Source: Candidatus Aminicenantes bacterium
GTDB lineage: Bacteria > Acidobacteriota > Aminicenantia > Aminicenantales > UBA4085
Assembly (NCBI GenBank): GCA_026393855.1
Contig: JAPKZJ010000035.1
Span: forward strand, 1-52,657
Reading direction: 5' to 3'
DNA length: 52,657 nt
The notes under the pieces are model-generated. The model had not been told where the DNA came from, ran no database searches, and saw only the letters and a list, made by a program, of their open reading frames with translations. Of the stretch, positions 10,146-29,941 are shown in pieces. Within the stretch, counting starts at the first letter, position 1. Each line of letters starts with the position of its first letter. Position numbers and translations under genes: made by a program.

Positions 10146-10263
10146 TAAGGGGGAGGCAGCCCTTGGCGTTGGAGGGGGAACCCGCCAATGGTTCCCCCTC
10201 CAAGGCAGTCCCCGCTTCCTCGCCGACCCTAAGCTGAAGCTTAGGGCTGCAAAGCCCGTGGGT
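10146..10263 (-). repeat. Family-2 hairpin repeat, copy a
   Basis: A 14-bp perfect stem (10169-10182 with 10190-10203, loop of 7) carries TTGGAGGGGGAACC. A second perfect hairpin, CCCTAAGC-TGAA-GCTTAGGG, lies at 10227-10246. Read on the minus strand the order is small hairpin then large hairpin, the same as in copies b (14331-14427) and c (29126-29217). A GGGCT-GCAA-AGCCC stem followed by GTGGGTTTTT at 10243-10267 could end + strand transcription before queC. Confidence 0.7.
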
Positions 10264-12014: not shown

Positions 12015-12028
12015 ATAGTATTTTCGCC

Positions 12029-12303
12029 CGATTCCGGGAATGCCAAGCGATCCGATGTGCCGGCCAACGGCGAGATCGCGAGGGCGGCGCCTTTTTCCAC
12101 AGCTCTCTGAGGGTACCTGCCTTGCAGGCGCCGAGGGCTGTTTGAGCACGCGACATTCTGACGGAGTCGAAACGGAGTGGGCGGTCTACAAGACCGGGAG
12201 ATCTGGAATGCGGAGTTCCGAGGCGCTGAGGAGAGCTGTGGGAAAAGGCGAGTCGAGCCCGAAGCCGCCGGGCCGACACTTCGAATCGCTATTCCCGGAA
12301 TCG
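12029..12303 (+). repeat. Family-1 inverted-repeat element, copy A
   Basis: The 275-base block between the convergent 3' ends of queE and the glycosyltransferase gene folds on itself. The outermost 13 bases (CGATTCCGGGAAT, 12029-12041) are perfectly complementary to 12291-12303. The inner arms contain a 20-bp stem with one mismatch (about 12089-12108 with 12231-12250). The loop holds the family core: CCGAGGGCTGTTTGAGCACG at 12131-12150, AAGACCGGGAGATC at 12190-12203 and ATGCGGAGTTCCG at 12208-12220. All three motifs recur in copies B and C. There is no transposase. Weak CCTAAA direct repeats flank it. Confidence 0.8.
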
Positions 12304-12313
12304 GAAGAAGAAC

Positions 12314-14287
12314 CTAAAATCCTCGGTCGGGCAGGATGAAAAACAGCCGCCGGCCCTTGAAGTCGGATTCCTCGAACTTGGCCATGATTCTTTTAGCTTC
12401 GGCCGTCTGGCCCGTCTTCATGTAGCACTGGCCGAGCGAGACGAGCATCGGCCAGCGGACCTTGGGATTTTTTTCGAGCTGCAGGGCGGCCTCGAGCGAA
12501 TAAGCGGCCTTGCGGAAGTTCCGCGCCTCGAGAAGCCGCAGCCCCTCTGTCCGCAGGCTCTCGACGTCCGTCGCAACCCAGCCGTCGCCGCGCAGCACGT
12601 CCTCGACAAAGGCGCGGAACCCAGGCCCATACATCTTAAATAGGGACTCGGGCTCGGCTAAAAGCTCGACCGAGCGGCGCGGCCGAACCGGCGGAACGAT
12701 CGGCCGGCCCCGGCGCACCGCCCCCACCTCCTGGCTCAGCGGCACAAGCAGCCCCTTCTCCAAAGTCCCGACATAGGCATAGAAGGCTCGCCCGGGGTAG
12801 GCCTGCATCAACCCAAGCGTCGTCGCGTCACCGCGGTCGTTGGCGAAGAGGACGTCGCCATCCAAGCGCGGCGTGTCGTAGAGGAATCCCGAGCCCCACC
12901 ACCCGGTGGGGAATCCGGTCAACGGGGCATAGAGAAGCTTCATGACGACGACGGCGTTGCGCAGGCCGAGCGGAGCCAGGGCGTTGTGAATCCAGGCCGA
13001 AGAGCCGCACATGTTCTGGTCGTAGCGCTCGTAGAACCACTCGGTCCAGGACGGGGCGACCCAGCGCGGGAAGCGGAAGGCGAAGGCGTAGAGGGAGAAG
13101 ACGGCCAGGACGACGGCGAGCGCTTTCCTCCACCGGTCTTCGCCGAAGCGGCGCGTTCGGGCGGCGAGCAGCTCCGGAGCCCGGCGCAAACCCTTGGCGC
13201 TGAGAAGGACAAGCAAGGGCAGGGCGTCGAAGAACATCCGGGCGCCGAGGACGACGAAGGCCCCCCAGAAAAAGAAAAAGCCGACGACCATGGATAGGAA
13301 CCCGGCCAAGAGAAGCAAGTCCCGCCCGCGCTCCTCCTTCCTGCGCCGGAACGCCCACAGCGCGAACGGCAGGAGCCAAAGCGAGGTCAGCGGCCAGCCG
13401 AATAAATCCTTGTTGATGGCCGCCATGTTCTCGCCGATCTGGATGGCGGCGACGAGGGGGGTGAAATCATAATCGAGGGTGGCCGCCCGGCCGAAGATCA
13501 CCGAATACGCCTGCCCATAGCGGGCGATGTATCCCGGCTTCAGCGGATCGCCGGTCGTAGCGGCGTTGTAAGCGAGAAAGATGCCCAGCGCGAGGATTCC
13601 GGCCAAGGCCAGGGCCAGGGCGTTTTTCCAGCGGAGCTTGAGGCGGGCCAGGGTTCGCACGGCTAGGACAATCAGGAAGGGCAGGGCGAAGACGGCGGCG
13701 TTGTAAGGCCGGATGAGGAAAGCTAAGCCCAGGCTCGCCCCCGCCGCCAGACCGTTCCGGAAAGTCGGGGCCCGCAGCGAGCGGAAGAAGAAAAGCAGGA
13801 AGACGGCGTTGAAGACCATGCTGGCGGTATGCGACATCATGGTCGAAGACATCAACAGGAGCCAGATGGACAGCGCACCGAGAATAGAGGCGAGAACACC
13901 CGTCCGGCGGTCGTAGATCTCGGTCCCCAGCCAATAGAACAACAGGACGGCGAAAGCGGCCAGGATGGGATTGACGAGCCACGGCGCTCCGACCAACAGG
14001 CCCAGCGCCAGCAGGAAAGGGAAGCCGGGCGGGTAGATCGTGTACCAGCGGCCGACATTGACGACATGCGGAAAGTCGAAGGCCTCGGGAACGGGGGGCA
14101 AAGGCGCCGTGACGCCGCCGCCCAGGAAGATCCGGGCCTGGAAGAGATAAACGGTCTCGTCGTGGATGTGCGGGACGCGGTCGAAGATCAGGATGTTGTA
14201 GGCGGCGCAGAAAAGGAAGGCGAAAACGGCGCCGGCCGCGACGGGCCACGGCAACTTTTGGCGGCGGCCGGCGGCAGGTTCGCTCAT
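12314..14287 (-). CDS. Membrane glycosyltransferase, GT39/ArnT-like, with TPR-like tail
   Basis: The 657-residue protein has about ten membrane helices in its first 400 residues. After the first helix lies a periplasmic loop with D-R-V-P-H-I-H-D-E-T-V-Y-L, the acidic D-E site typical of dolichyl- or undecaprenyl-phosphate-sugar-dependent transferases (PMT/ArnT/GT39). The soluble C-terminus ends in two TPR-like helix pairs (EGLRLLEARNFRKAAYSLEAAL; LGQCYMKTGQTAEAKRIM). It probably moves a lipid-linked sugar onto a protein or envelope glycan; donor and acceptor are unknown. I chose ATG 14287; ATGs at 14296 and 14344 are less likely because the upstream sequence runs into a family-2 repeat. Confidence 0.75.
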   Translation of the reverse strand: MSEPAAGRRQKLPWPVAAGAVFAFLFCAAYNILIFDRVPHIHDETVYLFQARIFLGGGVTAPLPPVPEAFDFPHVVNVGRWYTIYPPGFPFLLALGLLVGAPWLVNPILAAFAVLLFYWLGTEIYDRRTGVLASILGALSIWLLLMSSTMMSHTASMVFNAVFLLFFFRSLRAPTFRNGLAAGASLGLAFLIRPYNAAVFALPFLIVLAVRTLARLKLRWKNALALALAGILALGIFLAYNAATTGDPLKPGYIARYGQAYSVIFGRAATLDYDFTPLVAAIQIGENMAAINKDLFGWPLTSLWLLPFALWAFRRRKEERGRDLLLLAGFLSMVVGFFFFWGAFVVLGARMFFDALPLLVLLSAKGLRRAPELLAARTRRFGEDRWRKALAVVLAVFSLYAFAFRFPRWVAPSWTEWFYERYDQNMCGSSAWIHNALAPLGLRNAVVVMKLLYAPLTGFPTGWWGSGFLYDTPRLDGDVLFANDRGDATTLGLMQAYPGRAFYAYVGTLEKGLLVPLSQEVGAVRRGRPIVPPVRPRRSVELLAEPESLFKMYGPGFRAFVEDVLRGDGWVATDVESLRTEGLRLLEARNFRKAAYSLEAALQLEKNPKVRWPMLVSLGQCYMKTGQTAEAKRIMAKFEESDFKGRRLFFILPDRGF

Positions 14288-14330: not shown

Positions 14331-14427
14331 CCTTGGAGGGGCACCCTTGACCCGGGTTCCCCTCCAATGCTCTAATCGGCTTCACCGATTAGGGCTGCCA
14401 CCCCTCCAAGGAAGCCTTATCCGTTTG
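14331..14427 (-). repeat. Family-2 hairpin repeat, copy b
   Basis: TTGGAGGGGCACCC (14333-14346) pairs with GGGTTCCCCTCCAA (14354-14367) with one mismatch. CTAATCGG (14372-14379) pairs with CCGATTAG (14385-14392). On the minus strand it is preceded by CGGATAAGGCTTCC and GGGGTGGCAG, both also found in copy c at 29126-29153. It lies between two minus-strand genes, just upstream of the glycosyltransferase start. Confidence 0.75.
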
Positions 14428-15889: not shown

Positions 15890-16843
15890 ATGAAAGGCGA
15901 ACCGCCGAAAGCCCTCATCTACGGGCCAGTCCCCTCGCGCCGCTTGGGGTACTCGCTCGGTCTTGATATCCTGCCCTTCAAGACCTGCTCCATGGACTGC
16001 ATTTACTGTCAGCTCGGCGCCTATGGCCGGACGACGGACCGCCGGCGGGAATATGTCCCGGTCCGGGCCGTGCTGGCCCAGATCCGCGGCGCCCTGGCCT
16101 CGGGAGCGAGGATCGACGCAATCACCTTCTCCGGCTCGGGGGAGCCGACCCTCCATGCGGGAATCGGCCGCATCATCGCGGGTATAAAAAGGATGACCGA
16201 CGTCAAAGTGGTCGTTTTGACCAATTCCTCCACCCTGGCCGGACGGCGCAACGGCCGCGACCTCGTCCAAGCCGACATCGTCGTACCGTCCCTGGACGCC
16301 GTCACCGACCGCATCTTCGCCAAGGTCAACCGCCCGCATGCCGGGTTGACGGCTGAGAAGATCATCGACGGGCTGGTCCGGTTTCGCCGCCGCTTCAAAG
16401 GCCGGATCTGGCTCGAAGTCATGCTGGTCCGAGGGATCAACGACGGGCCGGCCCATCTGCGCCGGCTGCGGGCGGCGATCGAACGCATCCGGCCGGACCG
16501 CGTCCAGATCAACACCGTCGTTCGCCCCCCGGCCGAGAAGAGCGCCCGCCCCCTAACGGCGGCCGAGCTCGAGCGCGTGCGGATCTTCCTAGGGCCGACG
16601 GCCGAGATCATCGCCGATTTCTCCCGCGAGAAGCAGCCTGTCCCCGCCCCGGACGCTTCGGCCGCCATTTTGGCCGCCCTGAAGCGCCGGCCCATGACCG
16701 CCGGGGACCTGTCCCAGTCGCTCGGCCTGGTTGTGGAGGAAGTCCTGGCCCTGACCCGGCGCCTGACCGTGGCCGGGGCGATCCGTAAGGTCGCACACTC
16801 GGGCAACGCGTATTTCGAACCCGCGCCGACATCCAAGGGATAA
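15890..16843 (+). CDS. Radical SAM protein, COG0731-type, with C-terminal winged helix
   Basis: The 317-residue protein opens with the family signature YGPVPSRRLGYSLG and has the cluster motif C33-S-M-D-C37-I-Y-C40. FSGSGEPTL (about 83-91) is the SAM-binding GGE-like strand. These match the COG0731 group of Fe-S oxidoreductases related to the TYW1 catalytic domain, whose bacterial members are mostly uncharacterised. The last 70 residues (AAILAALKRRPMTAGDLSQSLG...) look like a winged helix. It lies between queF and two repeat elements; a link to tRNA modification is possible but unproven. Its stop is 10 bases from repeat copy B. Confidence 0.85.
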   Translation: MKGEPPKALIYGPVPSRRLGYSLGLDILPFKTCSMDCIYCQLGAYGRTTDRRREYVPVRAVLAQIRGALASGARIDAITFSGSGEPTLHAGIGRIIAGIKRMTDVKVVVLTNSSTLAGRRNGRDLVQADIVVPSLDAVTDRIFAKVNRPHAGLTAEKIIDGLVRFRRRFKGRIWLEVMLVRGINDGPAHLRRLRAAIERIRPDRVQINTVVRPPAEKSARPLTAAELERVRIFLGPTAEIIADFSREKQPVPAPDASAAILAALKRRPMTAGDLSQSLGLVVEEVLALTRRLTVAGAIRKVAHSGNAYFEPAPTSKG

Positions 16844-16853
16844 TAAAACCGGT

Positions 16854-17193
16854 TCTCTTCCATTCTGTGTGGCCTGCGTCACGGAATTCGGCCCGGCGGC
16901 GCGGGTTTTTCACGCCTTTTTTGCGCTTCTCTTCTCGGCGCCTGCGGAACTCCGCATACTCGATCTCTCGGTCTTGCACGACCTCCCACTCAGTCTCGTT
17001 GCCAATGATGGTTGCGTGCTCAAACATCCCTCGGCGCCCGCAGCGCTTCGCAGTCCTCGTAGGGACATCGCTTCGAGCGTCCCCGCGAGGGTTGGGTTCC
17101 CTCGAAGAGGTTCGCAAAAAAGCCTAAACCCGCGCGGTTTCGCCGTTGGCCGAACACCGTTCCGCCTTACCAACCCGCACTGAATGGAAGAGA
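16854..17193 (-). repeat. Family-1 inverted-repeat element, copy B
   Basis: The outer arms TCTCTTCCATTC (16854-16865) and GAATGGAAGAGA (17182-17193) are perfectly complementary. Further in, a G/C-plus-T-run arm at about 16906-16933 pairs with 17102-17137. The core is on the minus strand: CCGAGGG[A]TGTTTGAGCACG at 17034-17015 (one change from copy A), AAGACCGAGAGATC at 16975-16962 and ATGCGGAGTTCCG at 16957-16945. A hairpin module lies at 17041-17090. Direct repeats ATAAAACC-NN-TTCTCTT flank the element (16843-16859 and 17197-17213). Confidence 0.8.
17041..17090 (-). repeat. 50-base hairpin module inside copy B
   Basis: On the minus strand this block is 47/50 identical to 26643-26692 in copy C, and a diverged, inverted version lies at 17284-17331 in copy D. 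It forms its own stem (CCTCGCGGGGAC with GTCCCTACGAGG). In copy D the stem is CCTCGCGACGAC with GTCGTTACGAGG, so two base pairs changed together while the same imperfect pair is kept. Confidence 0.7.
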
Positions 17194-17255
17194 TCCATAA
17201 AACCTATTCTCTTGATCGGCTTTTTAGGAAAGCGCGAATTTTCGGCCAGGGCGAA

Positions 17256-17515
17256 GGCGATGGGGGTGAGCGCCGATGCGGTCGCTTCGCAGTCCTCGTA
17301 ACGACAGGCGCCTCGCTTGTCGTCGCGAGGGCGGAAATTTCGCTGCGTGTTCTCGTTTTTTGAGGGAATCCGTCCCGGAAAGAGGACGGACGGCGAGGAT
17401 GTCTGAGCGGACCGTACCAAGACCGTTAAATCGATGCGGGACGCGAGTTCCGAGCCGCCGAGAAAAACGAGACGCCACGGCGTAAAAATTTCCGCCAGAG
17501 CGAACCCCCATCGCC
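17256..17515 (+). repeat. Family-1 inverted-repeat element, copy D (diverged)
   Basis: GGCGATGGGGGT (17256-17267) is perfectly complementary to 17504-17515. Inner arms GGCGGAAATTT (17330-17340) and AAATTTCCGCC (17488-17498 region), and TCTCGTTTTTT (17351-17361) with GAGAAAAACGAGA (17459-17472), also pair. The core is only partly kept: CGAGGATGTCTGAGCG at 17393-17408, AAGACCGTTAAATC at 17419-17432, GAGTTCCG near 17452. A 9-base direct repeat CTTTTTAGG (17220-17228 and 17529-17537) flanks the block like a target-site duplication. Confidence 0.65.
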
Positions 17516-26439: not shown

Positions 26440-26449
26440 AGAGAATTTT

Positions 26450-26778
26450 TCCCATCGCCAGGGGATGGTCAAACGTCCCTGTATCCGGCCAACGGCGAAA
26501 TTGCGAGGGCGGCGCCTTTTTCCATAACTCTCCGAGGGAAGCCTGCGGCCGCCGAGGGCTGTTTGAGCACGCGACCATCTGACGGAATCGAAACGGAGGG
26601 GATGGACTCCAAGACCGGGAGATCTCGAATGCGGAGTTCCGCCCTCGCGGGGACTATCGAAGCGACGTCCCTACGAGGACTGCGAAGCGCTGGAGGCGCC
26701 GAGCGGAATAGCGTAAAAAGGAGTGGCGAACCCGCGCCGCCGAGACGACACCCCGGACCGCGTTTCCCGGGGATGGGA
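26450..26778 (+). repeat. Family-1 inverted-repeat element, copy C
   Basis: The ends TCCCATC (26450-26456) and GATGGGA (26772-26778) pair, continuing into CC-GGG-rich arms; the inner arms are less regular than in copies A and B. The core matches copy A closely: CCGAGGGCTGTTTGAGCACG at 26552-26571 (identical over 20 bases), AAGACCGGGAGATC at 26611-26624, ATGCGGAGTTCCG at 26629-26641. The hairpin module sits after the core here (26643-26692). The element ends 19 bases before the btuB -35 box. Confidence 0.8.
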
Positions 26779-26796
26779 GAAGTTCCTATAAAAATG

Positions 26797-26859: not shown

Positions 26860-27018
26860 GCCGGGTTCGAAGCAAGGGAAGTCCGTCGCAAGCGGACGCA
26901 GCCCCCGCTACTGTGATCGGGGACGAATCCCGGAAAATGCCACTGCTTCGGCGCGATAGCCGCGCCGGGGTGGGAAGGCCCGGGAGGAGGATGATCCGAG
27001 AGCCAGGAGACCTGCTTC
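26860..27018 (+). promoter_or_regulatory. Cobalamin (adenosylcobalamin-type) riboswitch
   Basis: The 3' B12 box GAGCCAGGAGACCTGC (27000-27015) is nearly perfect. It is preceded by the conserved GCCACTG (26939-26945) and, further upstream, by GGGAAG...CGCAGCCCCCGCTACTGTGAT (26876-26919), in the order expected for the class. GAAGCA (26869-26874) and TGCTTC (27013-27018) close the P1 stem. An intrinsic terminator and the btuB gene follow. The riboswitch senses cobalamin and turns down uptake when it is plentiful. Confidence 0.95.
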
Positions 27019-29125: not shown

Positions 29126-29217
29126 CGGATAAGGCTTCCATGAAGGGGTGGCAGGACGACGGCTGAAAGCCGGAGGCCGTTGGAGGGGGAACCACCCAAA
29201 GGTTCCCCCTCCAAGGG
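29126..29217 (+). repeat. Family-2 hairpin repeat, copy c
   Basis: CGGATAAGGCTTCC (29126-29139) and GGGGTGGCAG are shared with copy b. They are followed by the small hairpin CGGCT-GAA-AGCCG (29160-29172) and the large stem TTGGAGGGGGAACC (29180-29193) with 29201-29214, loop of 7. It fills the gap between the convergent ends of btuB and mntP and reaches to 3 bases from the mntP stop, so it may end both transcripts. Confidence 0.75.
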
Positions 29218-29219
29218 AG

Positions 29220-29792
29220 TCAGCCGAGGTGGTCGACGAGAATTTTGGCGGCGATGCCAAGCAGGACCAATCCGCCCGCAATCTCGGCCCACTTCCCCGC
29301 CCAGCGACCCAGAATCGGTCCCAGCCTGGTCCCGACCGCCGTCACGACGAAAGCGACGACGCCGATGACCAGGGCGGGGTAGACGACGGGAACACCGAGC
29401 GCGGCTAACCCTAAGCCCACGGCCAGCGCGTCCAGACTGGTCGCCAACGACAAGACCAAGACTCGACGGCCGCGGGTCTGGTCCGGGCACGAAGCGCCCG
29501 GCTCGATTCCCGCCTTGTCCTTCTTGAGCGCCTCGACCATCATCTTGCCCCCGATAAAGACTAGGAGCCCGGCCGCGATCCAATGATCAAAGGCTTGGAT
29601 GGTTCCGGCGACGGTGCGGCCCGCGGCCCAGCCCAGAATGGGCATGGCGAACTGGAACAGGCCGAAATAAAGGGACAGCCGGATCGTTTGCCGCGGGGTG
29701 CAGCCGCGCATGGACAGGCTGACGCCCACGGCCACGGCGAAGGCGTCCATGGCCAGAGCCAGGGCGATGCCCAGGACAACTATGATATTCAT
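29220..29792 (-). CDS. mntP: Manganese efflux pump MntP
   Basis: MntP (DUF204) exports Mn2+ across the inner membrane. The 190-residue protein has six hydrophobic helices in two homologous halves. The family's aspartates lie in L-A-M-D-A-F-A-V-A-V-G (14-24) and S-L-A-T-S-L-D-A-L-A-V-G-L-G (about 116-129). The glycine motif F-I-G-G-K-M near the cytoplasmic loop is also present. Length is typical. I see no yybP-ykoY manganese riboswitch upstream; the gap to uvrA is filled by a long palindrome instead. Confidence 0.92.
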   Translation of the reverse strand: MNIIVVLGIALALAMDAFAVAVGVSLSMRGCTPRQTIRLSLYFGLFQFAMPILGWAAGRTVAGTIQAFDHWIAAGLLVFIGGKMMVEALKKDKAGIEPGASCPDQTRGRRVLVLSLATSLDALAVGLGLAALGVPVVYPALVIGVVAFVVTAVGTRLGPILGRWAGKWAEIAGGLVLLGIAAKILVDHLG

Positions 29793-29817
29793 GGGGACTC
29801 TTACTTTACCAAAAGAA

Positions 29818-29911
29818 AGGGGTCAGGTCTTAACATTTAACGGATTGGGCCCGGCCTGACCCCGTGGTGCCAGGCCTCGTTAAAAACGTCAAGAGTTAAG
29901 ACCTGACCCCT
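29818..29911. repeat. REP-doublet-like palindrome between mntP and uvrA
   Basis: AGGGGTCAGGTCTTAAC (29818-29834) is perfectly complementary over 17 bp to 29895-29911. Inside lie GGCCTG...CAGGCC and TTTAACG...CGTTAAA, so the whole 94 bases can fold as one hairpin. Boxes of this GGGGTCAGGTCTTAAC type are known as REP sequences mobilised by RAYT (IS200-like tyrosine) transposases. No such transposase is in the window. Confidence 0.7.
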
Positions 29912-29941
29912 CTCCTGGTTTCTCCGCGGGTGTGATGGGTG

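Follow-up and report, generated by a model that had tools for sequence, protein, structure and literature searches.

Putative ISL3-type MITEs with a conserved, covarying fold-back interior in a genome of Candidatus Aminicenantes

Four long repeats lie between genes in one contig of a Candidatus Aminicenantes bacterium, and they share a short core set inside arms that differ from copy to copy. What are these repeats, and why do their arms still pair? The window is the whole stretch of DNA that was analysed, 52,657 nucleotides long; it is contig C35 of a 3.68 Mb genome assembly in 144 contigs. We argue that the repeats are probably ISL3-type MITEs (small non-autonomous transposons) carrying a fold-back module that is under selection as a folded strand, more likely as RNA.

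The copies in the window and in the genome

Copies A, B, C and D are all present with a core common to them, as the preliminary description had it, and B lies on the minus strand (Table 1). The loci given there were right but the ends were not, as A, B and C each extend further out. A and B do lie near stop codons, but A starts 3 and B 7 bases downstream instead of the 10-15 bases first given. Copy A is flanked by a convergent gene pair. Copy C is indeed seen 3' of a terminator-like hairpin. A cobalamin riboswitch (86 bits) lies at 26875-27013, about 90 bases past copy C, and in genome G024 a related element (L069) is likewise directly upstream of a cobalamin riboswitch.

Table 1. Coordinates of copies A to D and their parts within the window (z, fold against dinucleotide shuffles)
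Feature	Position	Strand	Remarks
Copy A, whole element, 297 bp	12018..12314	+	A-type, ISL3-like ends GTATTTTCGCCC...GAAGAAGAACC; fold z=-7.15
Copy A core 1, TGTTTGAGCACG	12139..12150	+	(near-)invariant across all copies
Copy A core 2, TGCGGAGTTCCG	12209..12220	+	
Copy B, whole element, 346 bp	16851..17196	-	B-type ISL3 ends GGTTCTCTTCCATTCT...; core on minus strand; z=-6.0
Copy B left target-site duplication, ATAAAACC	16843..16850	.	8/8 identical to the right one
Copy B right target-site duplication, ATAAAACC	17197..17204	.	8/8 identical to the left one
Copy B core 1, TGTTTGAGCACG	17015..17026	-	
Copy B core 2, TGCGGAGTTCCG	16945..16956	-	
Copy B nested module of ~50 bp (CCCTCGCGGGGACGCTCGAAGCGATGTCCCTACGAGGACTGCGAAGCGC) plus flank	17030..17091	-	ahead of core 1
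Copy C, chimeric element, 345 bp	26442..26786	+	A-kind left arm joined to a right arm of a different kind; no pairing between the arms
Copy C core 1	26560..26571	+	
Copy C core 2	26630..26641	+	
Copy C nested module of ~50 bp	26642..26703	+	immediately 3' of core 2
Copy D, distinct subfamily, divergent core (TGTCTGAGCGG...GCGAGTTCCG)	17256..17515	+	fold z=-7.1; no ISL3 end recognised
Copy D core 1 variant, TGTCTGAGCGG	17400..17410	+	
Copy D core 2 variant, GCGAGTTCCG	17443..17452	+	
Copy D nested module in left arm	17283..17331	+	missing from near-identical D copies, e.g. L257

Copy A folds at -146.3 kcal/mol. As first described, about 20 bp run together in its inner stem, and its 13-bp end (CGATTCCGGGAAT/ATTCCCGGAATCG) pairs perfectly. 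For A, B and D, 0 of 100-200 shuffles fold as well. Copy C is at shuffle level (z=-0.53, 28/100 shuffles equally good), so the claim that the arms fold back holds for three of the copies and fails for this one. It joins a left arm of the A kind to a right arm of the kind found in L023 and L028; the arms are therefore unpaired and the copy is a chimera.

These repeats do not stand alone as four separate RNAs. They are part of a mobile family with about 90 core-bearing copies genome-wide, each about 295 bp long (290-301 bp without inserts). Copies were counted by pattern and BLAST-type searches. In this genome the 15-base core is matched exactly at 86 places and with one mismatch at 6; when up to two mismatches are allowed there are 121 matches, against 9 for a reversed control pattern. 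Full-length searches with copies A and B each gave at least 40 scored candidates. All 40 places listed for the copy A query bear the core with at most one mismatch, and the query does not require it. A simple codon-usage gene finder allowed the gene context of 83 copies to be classified: 37 are convergent, 16 tandem-sense, 21 tandem-antisense and 9 divergent. Many copies start no more than about 15 bases from a stop codon, and there are several insertions in terminator T-runs. At most one of about 84 lies within a predicted gene, unlike the Rickettsia palindromic elements, which are found in frame in protein genes.

Many copies are interrupted by the insertion nested in copy B, whose module is 92% complementary to that of copy C. 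This module, about 50 bp long (CCCTCGCGGGGACTGTCGAAGCGACGTCCCTACGAGGACTGCGAAGCGC), is found at fixed sites, which lie to one side or the other of the core or within the arms. On one strand it reads as GTAG plus an imperfect hairpin. A second nested module (GTGTGCCGTTGGGGGCAACGGTATCATGCTGCGTGAACAG...GAGGGAACAACGCAGCAAGAT) is seen in the left arms of L039, L054, L057, L093 and L134.

Ends and target duplications

Both ends could be placed in 58 copies. The 8-mers flanking them are identical at 6 or more of 8 positions in 26/58, against 5.75% in the control. Their mean identity is 4.72 (control 2.82) and they are 86% AT. The duplication is perfect in copy B, where it reads GGTTTTAT on the minus strand, and in L004, L009, L033 and L095. 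That of copy A is degenerate (CCTAAATA / TAAAATCC). The inverted repeats begin GGWTC, and their first 10-20 bases are those of the complete ISL3 elements in the same order. Two end types can be told apart. The B-type ends, including those of copy B, are the ends of complete ISL3 transposons in genomes G045 and G035 (L197 and L201), which are 1328 bp long with ends GGTTCTCTTCCATATTGTGT matching at 20/20 and duplications at 8/8. The A-type ends are GGATCATCTCCCGATTAGTT or similar, as on ISL3 elements in G058, G047 and G005; L204 is an ISL3 element with GGATCATCTCCCGATTAGTT ends and an 8/8 duplication. The arm difference between A and B is thus at least in part a difference between two ISL3 end types. 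An ISL3 member with 8-bp direct repeats has been reported (PMC12554700).

There is no Pfam match inside the element, which is short, transposase-free and present in many copies. Since its inverted-repeat ends are shared with complete ISL3 transposons of related genomes, its sequence identifies it as a putative ISL3-type MITE. It differs from an ISL3 insertion sequence in having no transposase and in holding a long conserved fold-back module that is unrelated to the insertion sequence's interior. ISL3 transposases, supplied by complete elements elsewhere in the order, would recognise either of two short inverted repeats (GGWTCATCTCCC, GGWTCTCTTCCATTCTGTG). The element would then be pasted into AT-rich 8-bp targets, mostly intergenic and often directly behind a stop codon or within a terminator's T-run. 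We infer this mobility from the ends, the duplications and the matching complete transposons. The ISL3 transposase domain (PF01610) occurs in 30/93 genomes of the order and is absent from this genome (G000) and from the two other genomes of the genus searched (G001 and G002). This implies that the elements may have stopped moving. An autonomous partner in the same genome is usual, but it is not obligatory for fossil MITEs.

It must be noted that ISL3 may not account for every copy. Neither an ISL3 end nor an 8-bp duplication was seen around the D copies that were read, and D is grouped with the family by its core and fold alone. This subfamily has 12 further copies that are 84-96% identical to copy D. 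Four of its members (L244, L257, L258 and L262) are near-identical inside and have wholly different outermost stems that are still paired; most of them keep a GCGA/GAGC internal loop next to the outermost stem. In the G045 and G046 lineages there are likewise no ISL3 ends or evident duplication around the same module. The module is bounded by AGGTTTTGGGGGATAG...CTATCCCCCAAAACC in six loci of these two genomes (L156, L168, L174, L175, L179 and L180). It may spread there by another route, so ISL3 may not be its sole vehicle.

Constraint and pairing in the interior

Between the ends, the module would have an outer stem followed by an internal loop (TTTAGCC/GGCGTTAAAAA) and a covarying stem; it would further carry a small hairpin at the side, and its apical region (TTTGAGCAC...GTGCGGAGTT) would bear a lineage-specific middle of about 60 nt. 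These parts are not equally constrained. Among 40 copies of this genome, site-copies that are off consensus make up 0.4% in core 1 and 4% in core 2, and they rise to 13% in the middle and about 25% in the outer arms. Of 480 site-copies in core 1 none is a singleton, against a singleton rate of about 1.1-1.5% for most of the remaining segments. These 40 copies were gathered by the core pattern. The resulting bias should be small, as the 40 places from the BLAST-type search also bear the core.

One can imagine that the copies are passive neutral MITEs, spread in recent bursts from a few masters, with an interior that serves transposition alone. Most of the variation is common to several copies, i.e. 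it defines subfamilies, and singletons are held to about 1%, as recent bursts would have it. However, the target duplications are often degraded, which means many copies are probably old, and yet the core is intact in 38/40. The interior is also kept across genera despite different ends. We consider the neutral scenario unlikely. The scarcity of singletons and the degraded duplications fit each other poorly, so either sequence is exchanged between copies or some ends are misplaced.

The pattern TGTTTGAGCACG-N42-72-TGCGGAGTT is found in 12/94 genomes of the order, across 9 genera, and control matches are zero. In a phylum-wide scan of 396 genomes the exact core is confined to its own order. The middle between the cores differs from lineage to lineage and is unrelated among them. 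Around the core the same parts recur: GATTTAGCCTT opposite AATGGCGTTAAAAATC, a stem with changes in both of its strands from one lineage to the next, and a hairpin to the side, for example CCCGACGAAGTCGGG. We aligned 35 copies from 11 genomes over 277 columns. Both-sided changes occur in 17/30 predicted pairs. Paired cells make up 93.0%, against 81.9% in shuffled and 37-53% in slid versions. The covariation score is 0.401 against 0.189 for shuffled alignments and 0/500 shuffles score as high, although related rows inflate such counts. Selection acting on the folded strand is well supported by these comparisons. The preliminary description had proposed such selection and overlooked the mobility. 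Its argument that the arms differ and still pair holds across genomes, where there is covariation. Some of the variation in the arms stems from two ISL3 end types and nested insertions, not from compensatory change. No Rfam 15 covariance model gave a credible match to the element, either in the window or in relatives. Any function of the interior and any role in the host are putative.

Pairing could also be kept without selection. Template switching during replication can copy one arm onto the other, i.e. quasi-palindrome correction. Subfamily D is the clearest instance of the changing arms that were first described, and it speaks for this idea. Its copies have outer stems that are wholly different yet paired (GGCGATGG/CCATCGCC, GGGGTTTGG/CCAACCCC and GAGTGTGG/CC-TATACTC). 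These stems look like the product of arm copying, or of insertion into existing hairpins, and selection is not needed for them. The outer arms of A copies also show double changes in blocks. However, arm correction would erase the internal loops TTTAGCC/GGCGTTAAAAA and the apical motif, which are unpaired and yet kept across genera. It predicts no excess of G-U pairs, and the constraint on the core is left unaccounted for. As an explanation of the whole module we think it improbable.

A coding reading fares worse. It holds that the copies are decayed pieces of a protein-coding mobile element whose core encodes FEH...AEFR. B-type copies do read as an open frame (MFEHATIIGNETEWEVVQDREIEYAEFRRRREE), and core-to-core lengths mostly go in steps of 3 across lineages (80, 83, 86). 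Still, no tested frame has a Pfam match, and in most A copies the reading frame shifts and meets a stop. Open frames are found in 49/110 copies where 37 are expected from shuffled middles, a slight excess in which related copies are counted repeatedly. The middle is unrelated between genomes and the core-to-core length varies from 79 to 88. We reject a protein-coding origin of the core as very improbable, in agreement with the non-coding role first proposed.

We argue that the module is maintained by selection on a folded single strand, for which RNA would be likelier than DNA. Among the pairs that RNAalifold predicts on the sense strand, G-U outnumber A-C 58:8, but this choice of pairs favours the sense strand. 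When pairs are picked by Watson-Crick frequency, which is strand-unbiased, the counts are 75:49 for cells and 49:26 for genome-level events (p=0.011). No asymmetry appears among the pairs that both strands have in common (61:60). In 30/35 it is the sense strand whose composition-corrected z is lower. RNA is therefore only modestly favoured over DNA, and a role for folded single-stranded DNA is possible.

The DNA alternative is that the conserved thing is a single-stranded hairpin (cruciform or lagging-strand) used in replication or transposition, with a protein that reads the apical loop in DNA. The compact relatives treated below are tipped by GCGNAGC, a DNA mini-hairpin motif that is used to stabilise aptamers (PMC4686876), and in related genomes a GNA triloop (CGAAG, CGTAG) closes several of the side hairpins. 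Orientation relative to genes is also unbiased (16 tandem-sense against 21 tandem-antisense copies). This counts against a role at the transcript level, which would not predict it. On the other side, a DNA hairpin predicts no strand preference and so does not explain the excess of G-U over A-C mismatches on the sense strand. In this genome about 60 nt stand in place of the GNA tip. We find the DNA hairpin doubtful as the main explanation. If the folded strand is RNA, the likeliest action would be that read-through transcripts of neighbouring genes fold, that the conserved loops are bound or processed, and that insertion is tolerated at gene ends.

Bacterial MITEs are usually taken as passive leftovers. 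Here the ends name the mobiliser and the interior is kept across genera. With a near-unchanged core in about 90 copies of one genome, retention for the sake of the folded strand becomes directly testable.

Known systems, compact relatives and other repeats

Correia/NEMIS, ERIC, RUP and YPAL are small intergenic MITEs, most of them with inverted-repeat ends and target duplications. Their transcripts form long stem-loops, and some have been proposed as RNase III substrates (PMC2229807). The element described here is likewise small and intergenic, and its transcripts would fold into long stem-loops. However, it is about 295 bp long where those are 100-200 bp, and it has 8-bp duplications and ISL3 ends. 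Its interior is conserved across genera and strongly covarying, with a conserved apical loop. We matched it in sequence to none of the structured MITEs of that paper, the plasmid record collection gave no match to copy A, and in the literature we found no paper on such repeats in Aminicenantes. We conclude that this is a new family of putative ISL3-type MITEs, whose mobility is ordinary and whose interior is unusually conserved and covarying. Viral contigs L227-L230 with the long pattern were rejected as chance matches, as around it they have no further likeness to the element.

REPINs and their RAYT transposases are another obvious comparison. The repeats are palindromic and in many copies, and the genome encodes three RAYT-like proteins. 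Unlike REPINs, they are not tied to the RAYT genes here, which adjoin other palindromes (AATAGGGGTACAGTATACGTAA...) and not this core. The core is in 0/12 RAYT loci, so the link was rejected, and the RAYT loci give no support for the nested 50-bp module as a REP-like sequence either. For REPINs one would not expect a target duplication of 8 bp.

Hairpins with a similar apex occur well outside the order. The motif GTTTGAGCGNAGCGAGTT is present in 85 viral contigs in 41 distinct contexts, where by our estimate about 7 are expected by chance (assuming ~6e10 bases in the collection). The query motif derives from prior background on such repeats, and the test on the second loop is independent of it. 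There are 17 palindromic contexts, and TTTAG and GTTAAR lie on opposite sides in 8/17. Shuffling gives a mean of 0.37 and a maximum of 3 in 1000, and the loop pair occurs in 0/24 non-palindromic contexts. L340 has exact GGCGTTAAAAATC and GATTTAGCC. These compact hairpins, from Bacteroidetes-like and P2-like phage contigs, thus share the apical sequence with our element and about half of the palindromic ones share its loop pair. They differ in being much shorter, in ending on a GNA triloop, and in having the loop strands swapped in several cases. In four contigs (L265, L273, L284 and L333) the compact hairpin adjoins P2-type phage genes for the small terminase, the head-completion protein GPL and the capsid; it lies beside the small terminase and GPL genes. 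L265 also bears AAGTGCGGTCA, which is similar to the Pasteurellaceae DNA uptake signal. In the record collections the plasmids gave no compact relative and the phages one partial match. We found no paper with the 18-base compact motif and no published name for these hairpins.

Tentatively, these likenesses may reflect a cross-phylum fold-back superfamily, though we would not yet favour that reading. It would have a TTTGAGC/GAGTT tip and a TTTAGCC/GGCGTTAAAAA loop with swappable strands, and would ride different transposons and phages; in the present lineage the tip would have been replaced by a hypervariable domain of about 60 nt. If so, mobile structured nucleic acids would gain a new class, in which selection keeps each copy. 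The loop pair shared with the compact elements of other bacteria would provide a sequence handle on a widespread family.

Other palindromic repeats are also present. The RAYT-like transposase genes are in L233, L237 and L240 (contigs C21, C97 and C36 of this genome). L233 is flanked by inverted repeats of the AATAGGGGTACAGTATACGTAAATCCCTATTT type, and similar ones adjoin copies L022 and L095. A palindrome in the window at 29815-29914 (GAAAGGGGTCAGGTCTTAA...GTTAAGACCTGACCCC) is similar to the sequence 3' of the RAYT gene in L240 (TCTTAAGACCTGACCCC), and it may be a RAYT-linked repeat. A small palindromic repeat family (TTGGAGGGGGAACC...GGTTCCCCCTCCAA) occurs in the window at 10167-10210, 14331-14374 and 29178-29221.
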